Positions 41 through 36,781 of a stretch of DNA of 36,781 nt are shown one piece after another; position 1 is the stretch's first letter; every line of letters begins with the position of its first letter. Location of the stretch: positions 1 to 36,781 of the IMG/VR virus record IMGVR_UViG_3300008107_000418; one strand, written 5' to 3'. Source of the stretch: a virus. A program made the position numbers and the translations under genes. Under the pieces are notes generated by a model, which was given only the letters and a program-made list of their open reading frames with translations, was not told the origin of the DNA and did not search any database.

Positions 41-264
41 TTTTGCCGCAGGCAAAAAATAATTAAAAATACTTTGTACAAAAGTGTCCGCTAAGGACCT
101 TTTGGACACCTATAGTATAGTGAGAGGCGAAATAATCGGAGCCTCTCCACACACTAGCAGCGACCCTTGGGGTCGCACCCTAAGAGAAGCCCTAACCTTC
201 GGCTTCGTTTAGACTACGCCTACGGTTAGGAGATAAGCCCGAAACTTCCATACTTTCGTTTCGG
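41..264 (+). promoter_or_regulatory. Structured leader before the terminase gene, six inverted repeats
   Basis: The first 265 bases hold no credible gene. Six inverted repeats follow one another: 41-47/51-57 (7 bp, loop 3), 84-89/104-109 (6 bp), 122-128/141-147 (7 bp, loop 12), 160-166/170-176 (7 bp, loop 3), 191-197/224-230 (7 bp, loop 26) and 239-245/258-264 (7 bp, loop 12). Two overlapping TATAGT boxes at 111-121 could be a -10 element, but no good -35 lies at the right distance. An AGGAG at 228-232 is the only Shine-Dalgarno-like sequence before the terminase start at 266; its first three bases (228-230) lie in the fifth stem. Possible roles are an untranslated regulatory RNA leader, a packaging recognition site next to terL, or both. 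The repeats are seen directly; the roles are inference. Confidence 0.6.
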
Positions 265-265
265 T

Positions 266-2134
266 ATGCCTATGGAGAGAAAAAGAACAACTGCTGCTAG
301 CCATCGAAGCGATGCTATCAAGAAGCAAATTATTGAATTTTTAATGGAGGGGTACTCCGTCCAACGAGCCATGGATGCCGTTGGCCGTAGTATCAAAACC
401 TACGAATACTACCGAAAGATGGACCAGGAGTTCTCGACCCAGGTAGATAAAGTCCGTAGTATGACTGCCCGTGGAGAAATTGGCGGGGCTAGAGGGGAAG
501 TACCACCCTTCCCAGAGTTCTCAGAGAAATATCTAGGCACCAAGGTATTTAAGCACCAAGAGCATTGGATTGACCTACTTGAGGGTAGGCAACCTTCGGA
601 TGTTCATCCTGCCATTACCTTTGAAGAGGGTAGCCCAGACCTACTGATTGTTAACACCCCTCCAGAACACGCAAAGTCCACGACCATTACGGTCAACTAT
701 GCTGTCTATCGGATATGTCAGAACCCTAACATCCGTATCATGGTAGTCTCAAAGACTCAGGCCATGGCTCAGAAATTCCTGCTCTCCATTAAGAACAGAC
801 TCACACACCCTAAATATCAGGATTTGCAACTTACCTTTGGTCCGCCAGGGGGATTCCAAAAAGGGTCTGATTCATGGAAGCAGGATTTAATTTACCTATC
901 CTCCGAGTCTCGTGACTCAGGCGAAAAGGACCCTACCGTACAGGCTATCGGTGTCCGTGGTCATATCTACGGTGCCCGTGCCGACTTAATTATCATGGAC
1001 GACTGTGTTGACCATACCAACGCCCATGAGTACGAGAAGCAGATTGACTGGATTCAGTCCGAAGTTATGTCCCGTATTGACAACGATGGTGGTCGCCTAC
1101 TGGTTATCGGTACCCGCCTTCGTCCAAGGGACTTGTACTCTGAACTACGCGACCCTATTCGCTACCCAGACGAAGAATCTCCATGGACTTACTTCGCACA
1201 ACCTGCAGTTTTAGAATTTGACGAGGACCCTGACAAATGGGTAACACTCTGGCCTAAGACCAACATGCCACCCGTATCTGGTAAGGGAGTACCTGACGAT
1301 GACGGGCTGTATAGCAAGTGGGATGGACCCGCACTTCACAAGAAGCGCTCCCGTATATCCCCAAATCTATGGGCAATGGTTTACCAGCAACAGCAGGTAC
1401 ACGAAGATTCAGCATTTCCAAGCACCGCAATCAAGGGTGTTATCAATGGCGCTCGCAACTTTGGAATTATTCCAAGGGGTAAGAACGGCGTTCGCTACAA
1501 CGGTATGGATGGATTGATTGTTGTAGCAGGACTAGACCCAGCAGGCTCTGGTTATACCGCAGCCGTATGCCTAGCACTTGATGTTTCTACACAGAAGCGT
1601 TATCTGCTAGATGTATCTAACAAGCCTGGCATGAAGCCAGATGAGATACGAGAACTGATTAAAGGCTGGACAGATAAATATCGAGTTTCTGAGTGGCGAG
1701 TTGAGAAGAACGCTTTTCAAACAATGCTCACTCAGGACCGTGAGGTACGGGAATACCTGTCGTCACGGGGTGCAATTTTACGCGAACATCATACGGGTCA
1801 AAACAAATGGGACACCAACTTCGGAGTTGCATCCCTGACGACCCTCTTTCACGGTTGGGAAGATGGCAGAGCGCTTATTGAGTTCCCATCAACCCATGCA
1901 TCAGAAGGTTTAAAGACTCTTATTGAGCAACTTGTAACCTGGTACCCAGATGCACCTAAGTCGCAAAAGACAGATACCGTCATGGCTTTCTGGTTTGCTG
2001 AACTTGGCTGCCGAGACAGGCTTACAAACGCATCAAACTTTGCAAAAACACACAATCGTATGAATATGTTTCATACAAAGTACGACCAATCACGACAGAT
2101 AACTGTCAACTTAAATGACTATAACTATTCATAG
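266..2134 (+). CDS. terL: Terminase large subunit with N-terminal HTH-like segment
   Basis: This is the ATPase-nuclease that pumps and cuts phage DNA at the portal during packaging. Residues about 20-50 look like a helix-turn-helix, a DNA-contact role usually given to a separate small terminase. The ATPase domain shows a variant Walker A, TPPEHAKST (131-139), Walker B LIIMDD (241-246) and a coupling motif IGTRL (281-285). The nuclease domain has acidic residues D424 (GLDPAGSG), E480 (VEKNAF) and D570 (TDTVMAFW). At 622 residues it is slightly long for the family. The ATG at 266 lacks an SD at normal linear distance; see the leader entry. A second in-frame ATG is at 272. No separate small-subunit gene is seen in the window. 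The family call is firm; the fused recognition role is inference. Confidence 0.93.
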   Translation: MPMERKRTTAASHRSDAIKKQIIEFLMEGYSVQRAMDAVGRSIKTYEYYRKMDQEFSTQVDKVRSMTARGEIGGARGEVPPFPEFSEKYLGTKVFKHQEHWIDLLEGRQPSDVHPAITFEEGSPDLLIVNTPPEHAKSTTITVNYAVYRICQNPNIRIMVVSKTQAMAQKFLLSIKNRLTHPKYQDLQLTFGPPGGFQKGSDSWKQDLIYLSSESRDSGEKDPTVQAIGVRGHIYGARADLIIMDDCVDHTNAHEYEKQIDWIQSEVMSRIDNDGGRLLVIGTRLRPRDLYSELRDPIRYPDEESPWTYFAQPAVLEFDEDPDKWVTLWPKTNMPPVSGKGVPDDDGLYSKWDGPALHKKRSRISPNLWAMVYQQQQVHEDSAFPSTAIKGVINGARNFGIIPRGKNGVRYNGMDGLIVVAGLDPAGSGYTAAVCLALDVSTQKRYLLDVSNKPGMKPDEIRELIKGWTDKYRVSEWRVEKNAFQTMLTQDREVREYLSSRGAILREHHTGQNKWDTNFGVASLTTLFHGWEDGRALIEFPSTHASEGLKTLIEQLVTWYPDAPKSQKTDTVMAFWFAELGCRDRLTNASNFAKTHNRMNMFHTKYDQSRQITVNLNDYNYS

Positions 2135-33271: not shown

Positions 33272-33658
33272 ATGGTAAAGAACTCATCATTTGATTTAGA
33301 CTTTGGATTCGGTAGAAAAGGCGAGCAGTTAGTAGAAGAGTTACTTACAGAGGGAAAGAAAGTTGAAGTCAAGCGTGACCGCAAATGGTGGGTTACTAAT
33401 AATCTTTACATTGAAATTGAATGTTGGTTTATGAAGTCCAAGTCTTGGGAACCATCGGGCATCATGGTAACTGAGGCAGAGTATTGGGCTTTCGTATTAG
33501 AGAAGGGCGTACTCATAGTACCTACGAGCCATGTGTTGTACGCAATCAAAGAGTTCGGGCGTGAGATTACCTGCGAGATTCCCCCGAATAAAAGCAAGGG
33601 CTACCTGATTACAGTTGATGACCTACTAATGGCGATGAGGAAATTAAAGAATGAGTGA
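33272..33658 (+). CDS. Conserved PD-(D/E)XK-like protein, 128 aa
   Basis: The core FGFGRKGEQLVEELLTEGKK, then VEVKRDRKW and NLYIEIECW, resembles a conserved group of small phage proteins with an ExK nuclease-like centre (E-V-K) and a further EIE. The rest (YWAFVLEKGVLIVPTSHVL) is also typical. An active nuclease is likely but not shown. The ATG follows directly on the palindrome GTCTTAAGAC with no SD. The stop overlaps the sigma-like gene by 8 bases. Confidence 0.75.
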   Translation: MVKNSSFDLDFGFGRKGEQLVEELLTEGKKVEVKRDRKWWVTNNLYIEIECWFMKSKSWEPSGIMVTEAEYWAFVLEKGVLIVPTSHVLYAIKEFGREITCEIPPNKSKGYLITVDDLLMAMRKLKNE

Positions 33659-34298
33659 CGAGCAAGATAAGATATGGGAAACAATCTACGCAGTAGCAAA
33701 GCAGGTTGCCAGTCGTGGTAATCGTATCCATCGTGGCCTTGTAACTACCGATGATTTGTATCAGCACATGTCCTTGTGGGCGCTGGAACATTGGCACAAG
33801 ATAGAACAATGGGAAGCAGAGGATAGTCTTAAGTACAAACTACGCAAGACTTTCTTCAATGAGGCACAGAAGTATGCAGCAAAAGAGAGACAGCGTTACT
33901 CGCGCTCGCCCATGTCTGACAGTTTCTACTACTCACATGAGGTATTGCATGAACTATTGCGTGATGTGTGGACACACCAAGGCTGGACAGATACTCCTGA
34001 CTTAAGTAATGAATTTGTATCACGCTCATCTAAACCAAGCGAAGGTGGCAATCGTATGGCCTTGCTATCTGATGTGGCTTCGGGTCTTAAGAAACTAAAT
34101 GAGGCTGACCAAGAGTTGTTGCGCTTGCGTTATGACGATGGTGGCATGGAACTTGGTGCGCTCGCTGAAACCTACAACATATCCGAAGAGGCTATGCGTA
34201 AGAGAGTCAAGCGTGCTTTGGTTAAACTACAAGACAGACTCGGTGGAGAACAGCCAGTATGGAACCGCCGACCAAGGAAAGGTGAGGTACCAGAATGA
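33651..34298 (+). CDS. Sigma-70-family-like factor, 215 aa
   Basis: The N-terminal half (LVTTDDLYQHMSLWALEHWH, then LRKTFFNEAQKYAAKERQRY) has the layout of sigma region 2. The C-terminal segment (LLRLRYDDGGMELGALAETY, NISEEAMRKRVKRALVKLQD) is a clear region-4-type helix-turn-helix. Phages use such factors to redirect host polymerase to their own promoters, typically late ones. The C-terminus is basic. Alternative: a sigma-like DNA-binding protein without polymerase function. Overlaps neighbours on both sides (8 and 4 bases). Confidence 0.75.
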   Translation: MSDEQDKIWETIYAVAKQVASRGNRIHRGLVTTDDLYQHMSLWALEHWHKIEQWEAEDSLKYKLRKTFFNEAQKYAAKERQRYSRSPMSDSFYYSHEVLHELLRDVWTHQGWTDTPDLSNEFVSRSSKPSEGGNRMALLSDVASGLKKLNEADQELLRLRYDDGGMELGALAETYNISEEAMRKRVKRALVKLQDRLGGEQPVWNRRPRKGEVPE

Positions 34299-34843: not shown

Positions 34844-34879
34844 AAGCCCGCCAGAGACAGGAGAGAATCTAGCGGGCTT
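34844..34879. terminator. Bidirectional terminator between convergent operons
   Basis: AAGCCCGC (34844-34851) pairs with GCGGGCTT (34872-34879) around a 20-base loop. On the minus strand the stem is followed by TCTTATGTTCTAT; on the plus strand by CGTCCTTATTG. Both are only moderately T-rich. Its position between the convergent dNMP kinase and WhiB genes supports use in both directions. Confidence 0.75.
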
Positions 34880-34892
34880 CGTCCTTATTGTA

Positions 34893-35243
34893 TCATGGAT
34901 TATGTTGCGGGTCTGCGACAGAGATACCAAGTTGCGCCCTCAATCTTGAGCGCATTGGTGGTGTCGTCCCACCCCATACTCCAAACCTTTCATGTATTAA
35001 GCCCCACTCTAAGCATGGCTCTTTAACTATGCAGTTGTTGCACATGCGGGTGAATAACTTCTCCTCGCTTGGGTCGAACTTCTCCTTCGGTGGATAGAAC
35101 AGTTCGGTATCTATCCCTTGGCAGTTAGCCCCATCAAATAACTTGGCGTTGTACTTGAGAATCCAGCGCTCGTAAAATCTTTTTCTATTGCGCAGTCTAT
35201 CGTGCGCTATCACAGTGTGAAACTGTGGCTTAAAGTATTTCAT
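34893..35243 (-). CDS. WhiB-like Fe-S transcription regulator, 116 aa
   Basis: Cysteines C41, C68, C71 and C77 (GANCQGID, MCNNCIVKEPCLEWG) and the turn GVWGG (88-92, in HERFGVWGGTTP) are the WhiB signature. C1-C2 spacing is 26 residues, longer than most. WhiB proteins bind a 4Fe-4S cluster and work with the primary sigma factor. Phage versions are known to interfere with host WhiB control and septation. The family is actinobacterial, which fixes the likely host phylum. It is last in the minus-strand operon. Its ATG is preceded by TTAAGAC and no evident SD. Confidence 0.92.
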   Translation of the reverse strand: MKYFKPQFHTVIAHDRLRNRKRFYERWILKYNAKLFDGANCQGIDTELFYPPKEKFDPSEEKLFTRMCNNCIVKEPCLEWGLIHERFGVWGGTTPPMRSRLRAQLGISVADPQHNP

Positions 35244-35246
35244 GTC

Positions 35247-35690
35247 TTAATACCAACCCTTCGCTAAGTGGTGAGCGTATGCCTTGCATATTCCGTTGCT
35301 TCCATAGCGGTGCTTGATATAGCGCAAGCCCGCATCCACCTGCTTGTAGCCGTCCCAAGTTGGCTTTACCTTGATGTTCTCCCATGTGCTATTGAGTAAC
35401 TGTGGTATTCCCATGGCGCTAGACTCTTTGTTCTTGGCCTTTGGCCTCCAGTTTGACTCGCGCATCCAGAGTTCATAGAGACATGGGTACTGCTCCAACA
35501 TGTTCTTCTCGATGAGTTTATCAACTGCATATCTTTGGTAATCATTCTGATAGTAAGCAATCACCTTGCCATGTGGTGGCTTAACGATGAAAGTGGCTGG
35601 CTCTTTGAACATGAGTACCAAGCCAAGTGCGATGGCGGATACAATCCACAGTCGGGCATGGGGATGAATCTGTCTTAAGTTATTAAACAT
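35247..35690 (-). CDS. Membrane-anchored lytic transglycosylase-like protein, 147 aa
   Basis: One membrane segment (residues about 14-28, LWIVSAIALGLVLMF) is followed by an outside domain. Catalytic-type Glu78 (LWMRESNW) and SAMGIPQLLNSTW (91-103) match the SLT/lysozyme-like fold (ExxxW, then AxGxxQ). A late part VDAGLRYIKHRYGSNGICKA also fits. SD GGAG five bases before ATG. Being early-operon and on the opposite strand from the lysis cassette, it may open wall locally for a non-lysis purpose, such as modifying the wall or excluding other phages; that is inference. Confidence 0.82.
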   Translation of the reverse strand: MFNNLRQIHPHARLWIVSAIALGLVLMFKEPATFIVKPPHGKVIAYYQNDYQRYAVDKLIEKNMLEQYPCLYELWMRESNWRPKAKNKESSAMGIPQLLNSTWENIKVKPTWDGYKQVDAGLRYIKHRYGSNGICKAYAHHLAKGWY

Positions 35691-35859
35691 TTTTCTCCAG
35701 TTCCTTTTCTGCCTGCTCGTGGAGATAGGTATCTATTGCCCTCTCCTCTTGCTCTCTCTGCACCTGCGTGCAGTAGTTGCATTTCTCATACATGAAGTTA
35801 ATAATCTTGGGGTTCACTACGACTGTGCCACAACCTAAGCACTGCATGTATGTGGTCAT
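35683..35859 (-). CDS. Zinc-ribbon micro-protein, 58 aa
   Basis: Reads MTTYMQCLGCGTVVVNPKII, then YEKCNYCTQVQREQEE and a charged helix to the end. Cys pairs at 7/10 and 27/30 form one zinc ribbon; the rest is a coiled-coil-like helix. SD GAAGGAGACACC is good. Start overlaps the previous stop (ATGA), and its end overlaps the transglycosylase start. It may bind DNA, RNA or a host protein. Confidence 0.78.
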   Translation of the reverse strand: MTTYMQCLGCGTVVVNPKIINFMYEKCNYCTQVQREQEERAIDTYLHEQAEKELEKNV

Positions 35860-36113
35860 GGTGTCTCCTTCTTTGTGTGTGCCTCAAGTGAATCAAGGAA
35901 GTAGCCGATGCTCATCTGCCCCTCTTCCTCAATCTTATCCGCCCATGCAGGTGCATCTATCCAGCGCCCTTGCAGGTCTAGCCATTGGATGTCGAATCCA
36001 TCGTGGTCATCCCAGTGCAGGATAACCCGCACCTCTTGCCCATCGTAGGTAATGTTCATATCTTTGTCGTAGGCTGTTTCTGTCTTAAATAATGCACCAA
36101 CCTGCAGTTCCAT
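35856..36113 (-). CDS. Hypothetical acidic protein, 85 aa
   Basis: I choose ATG 36113, which has AAGACAGGAGAA six bases before it; an upstream in-frame ATG (36137) lies in that signal's own region and has no SD. The product is beta-rich and acidic (YDGQEVRVILHWDDHDGFDI, QWLDLQGRWIDAPAW) and ends in HTKKETP. No family recognised. Overlaps the next gene by ATGA. Confidence 0.68.
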   Translation of the reverse strand: MELQVGALFKTETAYDKDMNITYDGQEVRVILHWDDHDGFDIQWLDLQGRWIDAPAWADKIEEEGQMSIGYFLDSLEAHTKKETP

Positions 36114-36129
36114 TGTTTGTTCTCCTGTC

Positions 36130-36243
36130 TTAGTCATCGCCGTACATCTCCTCTAGTGTGTCGTATTGTGACTCTGGTTCTGTATCTTCTTTATCTTTAC
36201 CGAGGGCAACATCGTCCCCCGACATCCATAATGGGTCAGGCAT
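36130..36243 (-). CDS. Acidic micro-protein, 37 aa
   Basis: MPDPLWMSGDDVALGKDKED, then a region ending EEMYGDD. Strongly acidic, probably disordered or an inhibitor-type peptide. AAGACGGGAGAA lies four bases before the ATG. Its start overlaps the end of the preceding gene and its stop comes 16 bases before the next ATG. It is too short for normal gene callers, and the SD and tiling are its main support. Confidence 0.6.
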   Translation of the reverse strand: MPDPLWMSGDDVALGKDKEDTEPESQYDTLEEMYGDD

Positions 36244-36373
36244 TTACTTCTCCCGTCTTGTGTATTAAGTCAATAAGAACTGACCCGAAAGTTGAGTCAT
36301 TCTTTTCTTGGTCAGCCGAGGCTGTTAGCGCCCTGATGCATACCTTTAATTGCCATTCAGTTATTTCTATCAC
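36236..36373 (-). CDS. Micro-protein with GTG start, 45 aa
   Basis: GTG start overlapping the previous stop (GTGA). It reads MIEITEWQLKVCIRALTASA, then a middle DQEKNDSTFGSV, ending in LIDLIHKTGEVNA. It looks like one or two short helices. AAGACAGGAGAA ends five bases before the GTG. Function unknown. It tiles without gaps between its neighbours. Confidence 0.62.
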   Translation of the reverse strand: MIEITEWQLKVCIRALTASADQEKNDSTFGSVLIDLIHKTGEVNA

Positions 36374-36537
36374 TTGCTTTCTCCTGTCTTAAGTAATGAT
36401 GGGGTTTGCTGGCATAGAACTACATGGCTTCTCTTGCATGTGCATCGAGGCGCACGATTCTTTTCCCTGCGTGTGGTTACTTCCATTGAGGTATCGCATG
36501 ATGTACATACATACCAGTATGTTGTCCACTCTTTCAT
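36370..36537 (-). CDS. Zinc-ribbon micro-protein, 55 aa
   Basis: Starts at ATG 36537 with SD TTAGGAGC. Reads MKEWTTYWYVCTSCDTSMEV and PRCTCKRSHVV, with Cys pairs CTSC and CTC for a zinc site. The C-terminus ends LLKTGESK; the KTGE stretch is encoded by the start-associated motif of the following gene. It overlaps both neighbours by ATGA/GTGA. Confidence 0.7.
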   Translation of the reverse strand: MKEWTTYWYVCTSCDTSMEVTTRREKNRAPRCTCKRSHVVLCQQTPSLLKTGESK

Positions 36538-36704
36538 TTGCTTGCTCCTAATACTTCGTAGGAGGTGAGTGATTTGTAGCAAGCAACGCATAGTCTTAAG
36601 TCATAATTCCACCCGCTGGGTACCAGCAGGAGGTCATTTCCCTTAAACATATCCTTGCAATTACGGCAAGAATAATCTCTCCATGCATAAAGTTTTTTGC
36701 TCAT
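36534..36704 (-). CDS. Zinc-ribbon micro-protein, 56 aa
   Basis: ATG 36704 with AAGACAGGAGAA five bases before it. Residues KLYAWRDYSCRNCKDMFKG and WNYDLRLCVACYKSL give two CxxC pairs (C13/C16, C39/C42). The product resembles a small zinc knuckle or ribbon with no other domain. The upstream in-frame ATG at 36758 lies in sequence better explained by another frame. A GTCTTAA copy lies inside the gene at 36593. Confidence 0.72.
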   Translation of the reverse strand: MSKKLYAWRDYSCRNCKDMFKGNDLLLVPSGWNYDLRLCVACYKSLTSYEVLGASK

Positions 36705-36781
36705 TTGTTTTCTCCTGTCTTGCGGTATTTCCGCGTGCCTTGCTTGGTCGTGAACCATCGCCGACTGCTCGGTGCAAGGCT
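36701..36781 (-). CDS. C-terminal end of a gene cut by the window edge
   Basis: The minus strand reads in from the right edge as SLAPSSRRWFTTKQGTRKYR followed by KTGENK and a TGA (36701-36703). The 5' part is missing. The frame is chosen because its stop overlaps the next ATG (ATGA) and its end KTGE is encoded by the same start-associated 12-mer as in other genes of the operon. Basic; function not assignable. Confidence 0.5.
   Translation of the reverse strand, partial: SLAPSSRRWFTTKQGTRKYRKTGENK

Follow-up and report, generated by a model that had tools for sequence, protein, structure and literature searches.

Conserved stem-loops behind a promoter-like block in front of a phage terminase gene

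Why should six short inverted repeats follow one another directly in front of a phage terminase gene? The window, that is, the whole stretch of DNA analyzed here (an IMG/VR virus record of 36,781 bases), raised this question when a sequence-only reading pointed out consecutive stems from position 41 to 264, called their density unusual, and proposed a regulatory RNA, an RNA involved in packaging, or a cos/pac region recognized by the terminase. All six stems were present: 7 bp with a loop of 3 (41–57), 6 bp with a loop of 14 (84–109), 7 bp with a loop of 12 (122–147), 7 bp with a loop of 3 (160–176), 7 bp with a loop of 26 (191–230), and 7 bp with a loop of 12 (239–264). Their density was far above chance in dinucleotide shuffles of 41–264. 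Counting perfect stems no shorter than 7 bp with loops of 3–13, we obtained 4, versus a mean of 0.156, and none of 1000 shuffles reached 4; for stems of at least 6 bp with loops of 3–26 the count was 8 versus 1.2 (0/1000 shuffles). The entire window held 22 such 7-bp repeats versus 21.8 in 20 shuffles, no more than chance gives, and the repeat density is therefore local to the leader. The region was free of genes, as had been claimed; the terL open reading frame starts at 266, and its conserved start is probably the in-frame ATG at 272 (ATGGARAG in relatives).

The terL gene heads a rightward series, the larger open reading frames spanning 266 to 34834 lying on the plus strand. Its product is 49% identical to TerL of Streptomyces phage WRightOn (alignment A1) and 49–50% identical to that of several other Streptomyces phages; a search of bacterial genomes for relatives gave only 4 Streptomyces loci, at 48–51%, and no close prophage. 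Relatives were collected by TerL-directed scans, each contributing the best 80 loci out of 391–599 matching stretches. From 321 anchored loci we parsed 107 unique leaders, identical ones having been merged before the count and loci with TerL identity below 75%, too short an upstream sequence, or no ATG near the anchor having been left out. Rfam 15 held no family at or above the gathering threshold for the leader, and at E up to 10 it gave two families only (a microRNA and U5), both far under threshold. In the open-access literature, judged by title and the start of the abstract, we found no structured terminase leader, and a terminase search within PMC2864571 and PMC8040213 brought up none either. 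The features of the region are as follows.

41 to 57, no strand assigned: H0, inverted repeat TTTTGCC-GCA-GGCAAAA, from the repeat search
84 to 109, no strand assigned: H1, sequence-fixed inverted repeat GTGTCC-14-GGACAC; TGTCC-14-GGACACC in 106 of 106 relatives
104 to 121, plus strand: promoter-like box GGACACCTATAGTATAGT; GGACACCTA in 106 of 106 relatives, TATA..TATARTG-G in Streptomyces relatives
122 to 147, plus strand: H2, 7-12-7 stem-loop where the transcript is inferred to begin, with covariation
160 to 176, plus strand: H3, stem-loop of 7 bp with a loop of 3 (3–5 in relatives), highly variable in sequence
191 to 230, plus strand: H4, imperfect hairpin CCUAACC / 3x3 loop / GGC / 3x3 loop / GU-UUAG-AC and back; of all the stems the most conserved in sequence
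228 to 232, plus strand: Shine-Dalgarno sequence AGGAG, which precedes H5 and overlaps H4 on its 3′ arm
239 to 264, plus strand: H5, stem-loop 7-12-7 between the Shine-Dalgarno sequence and the start codon, with covariation
266 to 2134, plus strand: terL, terminase large subunit (PHROG 38, E 2.3e-67; Pfam Terminase_6C)

Folding against shuffled controls, one of the checks that the sequence-only reading had suggested, showed that the leader folds better than its shuffles. As RNA, 1–290 gave a z of −4.08, with none of 200 shuffles as low, and 122–274 gave −3.14 (1/200 shuffles); folded as DNA, 122–274 gave −3.53 (0/200). The minus strand of 1–290 reached −3.78, and therefore the strand is not chosen by folding energy alone. 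Of the 33 starts examined, only one had a more strongly folded 160-nt upstream region than terL.

The other suggested check, compensatory changes in relatives, was positive for the last stems, 122–264. By their sequences the repeats fell into two classes, H1 being fixed in sequence, whereas the last four drift while their pairing is kept. H3 had a perfect 6-bp stem in 107 of 107 leaders versus 1 of 107 shuffled, and H5 a perfect 7-bp stem with a loop of 12 or 13 in 104 of 107 versus none shuffled; the remaining three (L219, L220, and L223) have by eye the same H5 hairpin with one bulged base. Stem alignments were made by hand from leaders of standard loop length (53, 45, and 26 distinct sequences). 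Covariation scores were 0.494 for H2 versus 0.184 shuffled, with 4 of 7 pairs changing on both sides; 0.931 for H3 versus 0.207 (26 distinct 17-mers, 156/156 cells paired); and 0.728 for H5 versus 0.205 (364/364 cells paired, 7 of 7 pairs changing on both sides). None of 500 shuffles attained any of these scores, which are biased towards the stem geometry to which the alignments were cut, a bias answered in part by slid controls (0.044–0.220, 0.058–0.219, and 0.061–0.111). Parsimony on the terL tree of the 107 leaders, for which H2 was re-parsed with a C-G closing pair required, gave 129 double Watson-Crick changes (14 in H2, 63 in H3, and 52 in H5) and one single change, counts that recombination between phages could inflate; 61 of the 129 were transversion pairs, and four more double changes led to or from a mismatch. 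RNAalifold on the leaders recovered H2, H4, and H5. Kissing of the H2 and H5 loops was considered and dropped, a by-eye comparison of leaders having given no consistent complementarity.

H4 combines a fixed and a changing part. Its outer stem is fixed, and its inner stem covaries, with GGC/GCC in 83 leaders, GGG/CCC in 18, GCC/GGC in 3, GGT/ACC in 1, and a broken stem in 2 (n = 107). A 3x3 loop separates the two stems, and in 103 of 107 leaders each of its sides reads T(T or A)C. In one relative, L074 (upstream of 2519), each arm of H4 gains GGC and a 3x3 loop, an extension of exactly one module that supports the nested model of this hairpin. In the outer internal loop, T(T/A)C stands on each arm between CC and GG, so that each side reads C-U(U/A)CG-G, resembling a UNCG tetraloop motif from which the stem is missing. 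When the H4 segment was folded by minimum energy, 28 of 107 leaders did not form H4; the window is one of them, and there another hairpin forms instead and frees the Shine-Dalgarno sequence. This alternative is unproven, since a whole lineage (GAAGCC to TTAGCC) has one side of its extra pairs broken. An H-type pseudoknot (GAAGCC/GGCTTC plus CTAACC/GGTTAG) was rejected, since other lineages have lost its GAAGCC side and the inner H4 stem covaries.

The first two repeats behaved differently, and for them the regulatory RNA that had been proposed was not supported: 84–109 has a fixed sequence and precedes the point where transcription is inferred to start, and 41–57 is replaced in many relatives. 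Inverted repeat H1 was followed by a TAGTATA-like box in all 106 leaders having the region, and nine Streptomyces phages carry TGTCC..GAC(A/G)GG in the same place, then TATA..TATARTG-GG. Because it is sequence-fixed and upstream of the inferred start, H1 is better read as a DNA element, a candidate site for a protein, probably a transcription factor. In the promoter-like box the −10 element is probably TATAGT (111–116), which would place the start of transcription at about 122. A scan of 1–2500 with the sigma-70 consensus gave 0 promoter-like sites; a predicted sigma factor is encoded near the end of the plus-strand genes (33651–34298; Pfam Sigma70_r4, PHROG sigma-K), and this phage protein could be the reader of the terL promoter. 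On the plus strand no intrinsic terminator, defined as a G+C-rich stem followed by a T run, occurs before 970. H0 is not general: 43 of 105 relatives instead carry a palindrome like TGTGANNTANNTCACA with at most 1 mismatch upstream of the promoter, versus 0 of 105 shuffled, and the window has none there. These palindromes, presumably sites of the CRP/GlxR type, lie about 150–280 nt upstream of terL in relatives (about 290–375 in L085 and L086), and Streptomyces phages have two sites related to TGTGANNTANNTCACA upstream of the terL promoter.

The proposal of a cos/pac region was not borne out. In nine named Streptomyces relatives TerL begins at position 624–679 of the deposited genome, with a promoter-like box between the record start and TerL, and a comparison of contig ends of uncultured relatives found no common end sequence and no pile-up. 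Since TerL stands so far inside these genomes and the contig ends share nothing, a cut site within 41–264 appears unlikely. Three contigs that start 784–787 nt before TerL (L024, the same contig as L282, L029, and L058) were rejected as evidence for cos, their sequences being different. In L003 the space from TerL to the upstream reverse-strand open reading frame is also about 660 nt. Evidence for a packaging RNA was looked for and not found. Upstream of the promoter there is a conserved block, CCCCAGGRTTNTTAAA (GACCCGGGGGTTGTTAA in Streptomyces phages), about 320 nt before terL in L003 and about 235 in L085 and L086, which is a candidate terminase-recognition site.

What, then, might the last four hairpins do? 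For every leader we scored the sequence flanking H5, on each side, by its complementarity to the 16S tail. A Shine-Dalgarno sequence was present on one or both sides in 104 of 107 leaders: 5′ of H5 only in 61, on both sides in 21, and at the 3′ base only in 22, classes that track lineages, so that the 107 are not independent cases; the 3 with neither are those whose H5 the parser left unplaced. In the window, AGGAG is 33 nt from the AUG at 266 in linear sequence and 7 nt with H5 folded, and 39 and 13 nt from the AUG at 272, the only one of the two codons in many relatives, for which the bridged 13 nt is long. Strong closure of the start region was considered and rejected, its opening energies of 10.4 and 10.0 kcal/mol (ranks 9 and 11 of 33) being ordinary.

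From these comparisons we propose that terL heads a long rightward transcription unit and that this segment provides its promoter and structured 5′ leader. H1 would be a DNA site for a regulator beside the promoter, transcription would begin near 122, and the leader RNA would fold into H2, H3, H4, and H5, of which H4 and H5 would govern terL translation. In the window the 3′ arm of H4 may hold part of the Shine-Dalgarno sequence, and in other lineages that of H5 may do so; if the sequence precedes H5, this hairpin on folding would take 26 nt out of the gap and let the ribosome use the site. H2, as a 5′-terminal stem-loop, and H3 may protect the 5′ end of the transcript, which is our guess. We give this arrangement of regulator site, promoter, and leader, with H4 and H5 setting terL translation, about even chances, and control of terminase translation is the most likely function of the leader as judged from its sequence. 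The 129 double changes versus one single change in H2, H3, and H5 count for the structured leader, and the H1/promoter block, fixed in 106 of 106 relatives and recognizable in Streptomyces phages, counts for promoter and leader together. If true, more than 100 uncultured phage contigs share a testable way of setting terminase translation, made up of a promoter operator, a 5′ stem, and a Shine-Dalgarno sequence that is either split or masked.

Against this explanation we count the ordinary opening energies, the minimum-energy fold of the window in which H4 is replaced, the lineage-bound Shine-Dalgarno classes, the long spacing of 13 nt, and the empty promoter scan. A further objection is the near absence of G-U pairs, which RNA stems should contain; it leaves no strand signature for RNA. 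The fixed-geometry cells of H2, H3, and H5 comprised 2101 Watson-Crick, 2 G-U, 2 A-C, and 35 other; 30 of the 35 were A-G at the outermost H2 pair, and the rest include 3 wrong H2 registers. H4 gave 957 Watson-Crick cells, 6 mismatches, 0 G-U, and 0 A-C. One wobble costs the leader stems only 1.2–1.9 of 8–11 kcal/mol, so stability alone is insufficient to explain such strict pairing, and the avoidance hints at a constraint on both strands. The same phages offer a contrast. A terminator-like hairpin, AAGCCCGC-20-GCGGGCTT, lies near the right end downstream of the kinase gene (window 34844–34879; relatives among L332–L411), and in 69 relatives, whose rows were selected on the loop motif and contain repeats of one same stem, its 621 cells comprised 564 Watson-Crick, 57 A-C, and 0 G-U. 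Every non-Watson-Crick cell is thus A-C, that is, G-U on the minus strand, and this hairpin tolerates wobbles in a single orientation, the one that folding of the minus-strand RNA would predict. Its stem covaries, and its loop has the Shine-Dalgarno-like GACAGGAGAG in most relatives. With this wobble-tolerant hairpin as contrast the both-strand constraint is directly testable, and the count of G-U versus A-C cells is a simple control for which strand of a hairpin is used. Further along this end, TTAAGACAGGAGA or close variants recur on the minus strand before small reverse-strand genes (35238–36723), with 9 matches across the window when 2 mismatches are allowed, versus 1.05 in shuffles (largest 4), the best of them at the right end; these repeats recall start-associated sequences of mycobacteriophages.

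A constraint on both strands would follow if sense and antisense leader RNAs interacted and both had to fold, forbidding G-U in either strand. We think this improbable: although both wobble orientations are nearly absent from the leader and one is common in the terminator-like hairpin, the promoter scan showed no antisense promoter, and the first 40 terL codons show ordinary synonymous diversity (0.97, P 0.35; for the first 15 codons it is 0.69, P 0.02, from 8 columns only). A little less doubtful is a role for the repeats as DNA, whether as cruciforms or single-strand hairpins that serve packaging or replication, or in double-stranded form recognized by the terminase. The strand-symmetric stems, the folding of 122–274 as DNA, and their position adjoining terL would suit this, and cos regions often lie beside terL; its difficulties are arms that differ widely among relatives, unlike a protein-read double-stranded site, a Shine-Dalgarno placement that goes with H5, contig ends that share nothing, and left genome ends of named relatives that lie beyond the promoter. 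For the last four stems the shuffles and the compensatory changes support the proposed regulatory RNA, though neither tells RNA from DNA. It is a rather slim possibility that the leaders form a new, widespread phage family whose stems stay strictly Watson-Crick since both strands have to fold: the two could be paired sense and antisense RNAs, or one leader could serve translation as RNA and packaging, for the same terminase operon, as an array of DNA hairpins.

The pairing could also be kept by template switching in replication, arms being copied from each other with no need of selection on RNA. Many one-step transversion pairs on the tree (the 61 noted above) would fit, but the rest of the window has no excess of perfect repeats, the 7-12-7 geometry is maintained, and the internal loops of H4 remain imperfect, which makes this very improbable. 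The position of the hairpins, at the inferred start of the gene series from 266 to 34834, would likewise suit an antitermination or processivity leader that modifies RNA polymerase to read the whole rightward unit, in the manner of the HK022 put RNAs; these are about 70 nt with two stem-loops, putL lying just downstream of PL (parts of PMC9378689). The present leader has four hairpins and no Rfam match, put serves early operons, and the sequences of H3 and H5 vary freely whereas put activity needs specific bases (same parts of PMC9378689), so we regard antitermination as unlikely and retain control of terL translation as the preferred reading.

Among known systems, the nearest in kind are T4 genes 38 and 25, in which, according to the parts of PMC3014915 available, a hairpin between the Shine-Dalgarno sequence and the AUG shortens the spacing from 22 to 5 nt and from 27 to 11 nt. 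H5 may by analogy cut the effective spacing of terL. As in such split ribosome-binding sites, the Shine-Dalgarno sequence is too distant in linear sequence (33 or 39 nt in the window, and only 5′ of H5 in 61 of 107 leaders), and a conserved hairpin, H5, lies between. The folded spacing here is 7 nt (AUG 266) or 13 nt (AUG 272), versus 5–11 nt in T4. Unlike the T4 hairpins, H5 belongs to a four-hairpin leader, and other lineages have the Shine-Dalgarno sequence at its 3′ base. Hairpins that sequester it are described for T4 genes e, soc, 49, and I-TevI in the same parts of PMC3014915; like them, our leader has a stem whose 3′ arm contains Shine-Dalgarno bases, but here only part of the sequence is sequestered and the opening energy is ordinary. 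HK022 put RNA, which acts on the β′ zinc-binding domain (parts of PMC9378689), shares with our leader stem-loops directly downstream of a promoter, here a predicted one, and differs in hairpin number, operon class, and variability. The closest named phages are the Streptomyces Beephvirinae (Immanuel3, WRightOn, Manuel, and FlowerPower), with TerL about 49–50% identical; their hairpin sequences are not recognizably like those of the window and their folding is weaker (z −2.35 and −3.10), yet their left region has the same order of GGGTTNTTAA, CRP-like palindromes, TGTCC..GAC promoter, hairpins, and terL.
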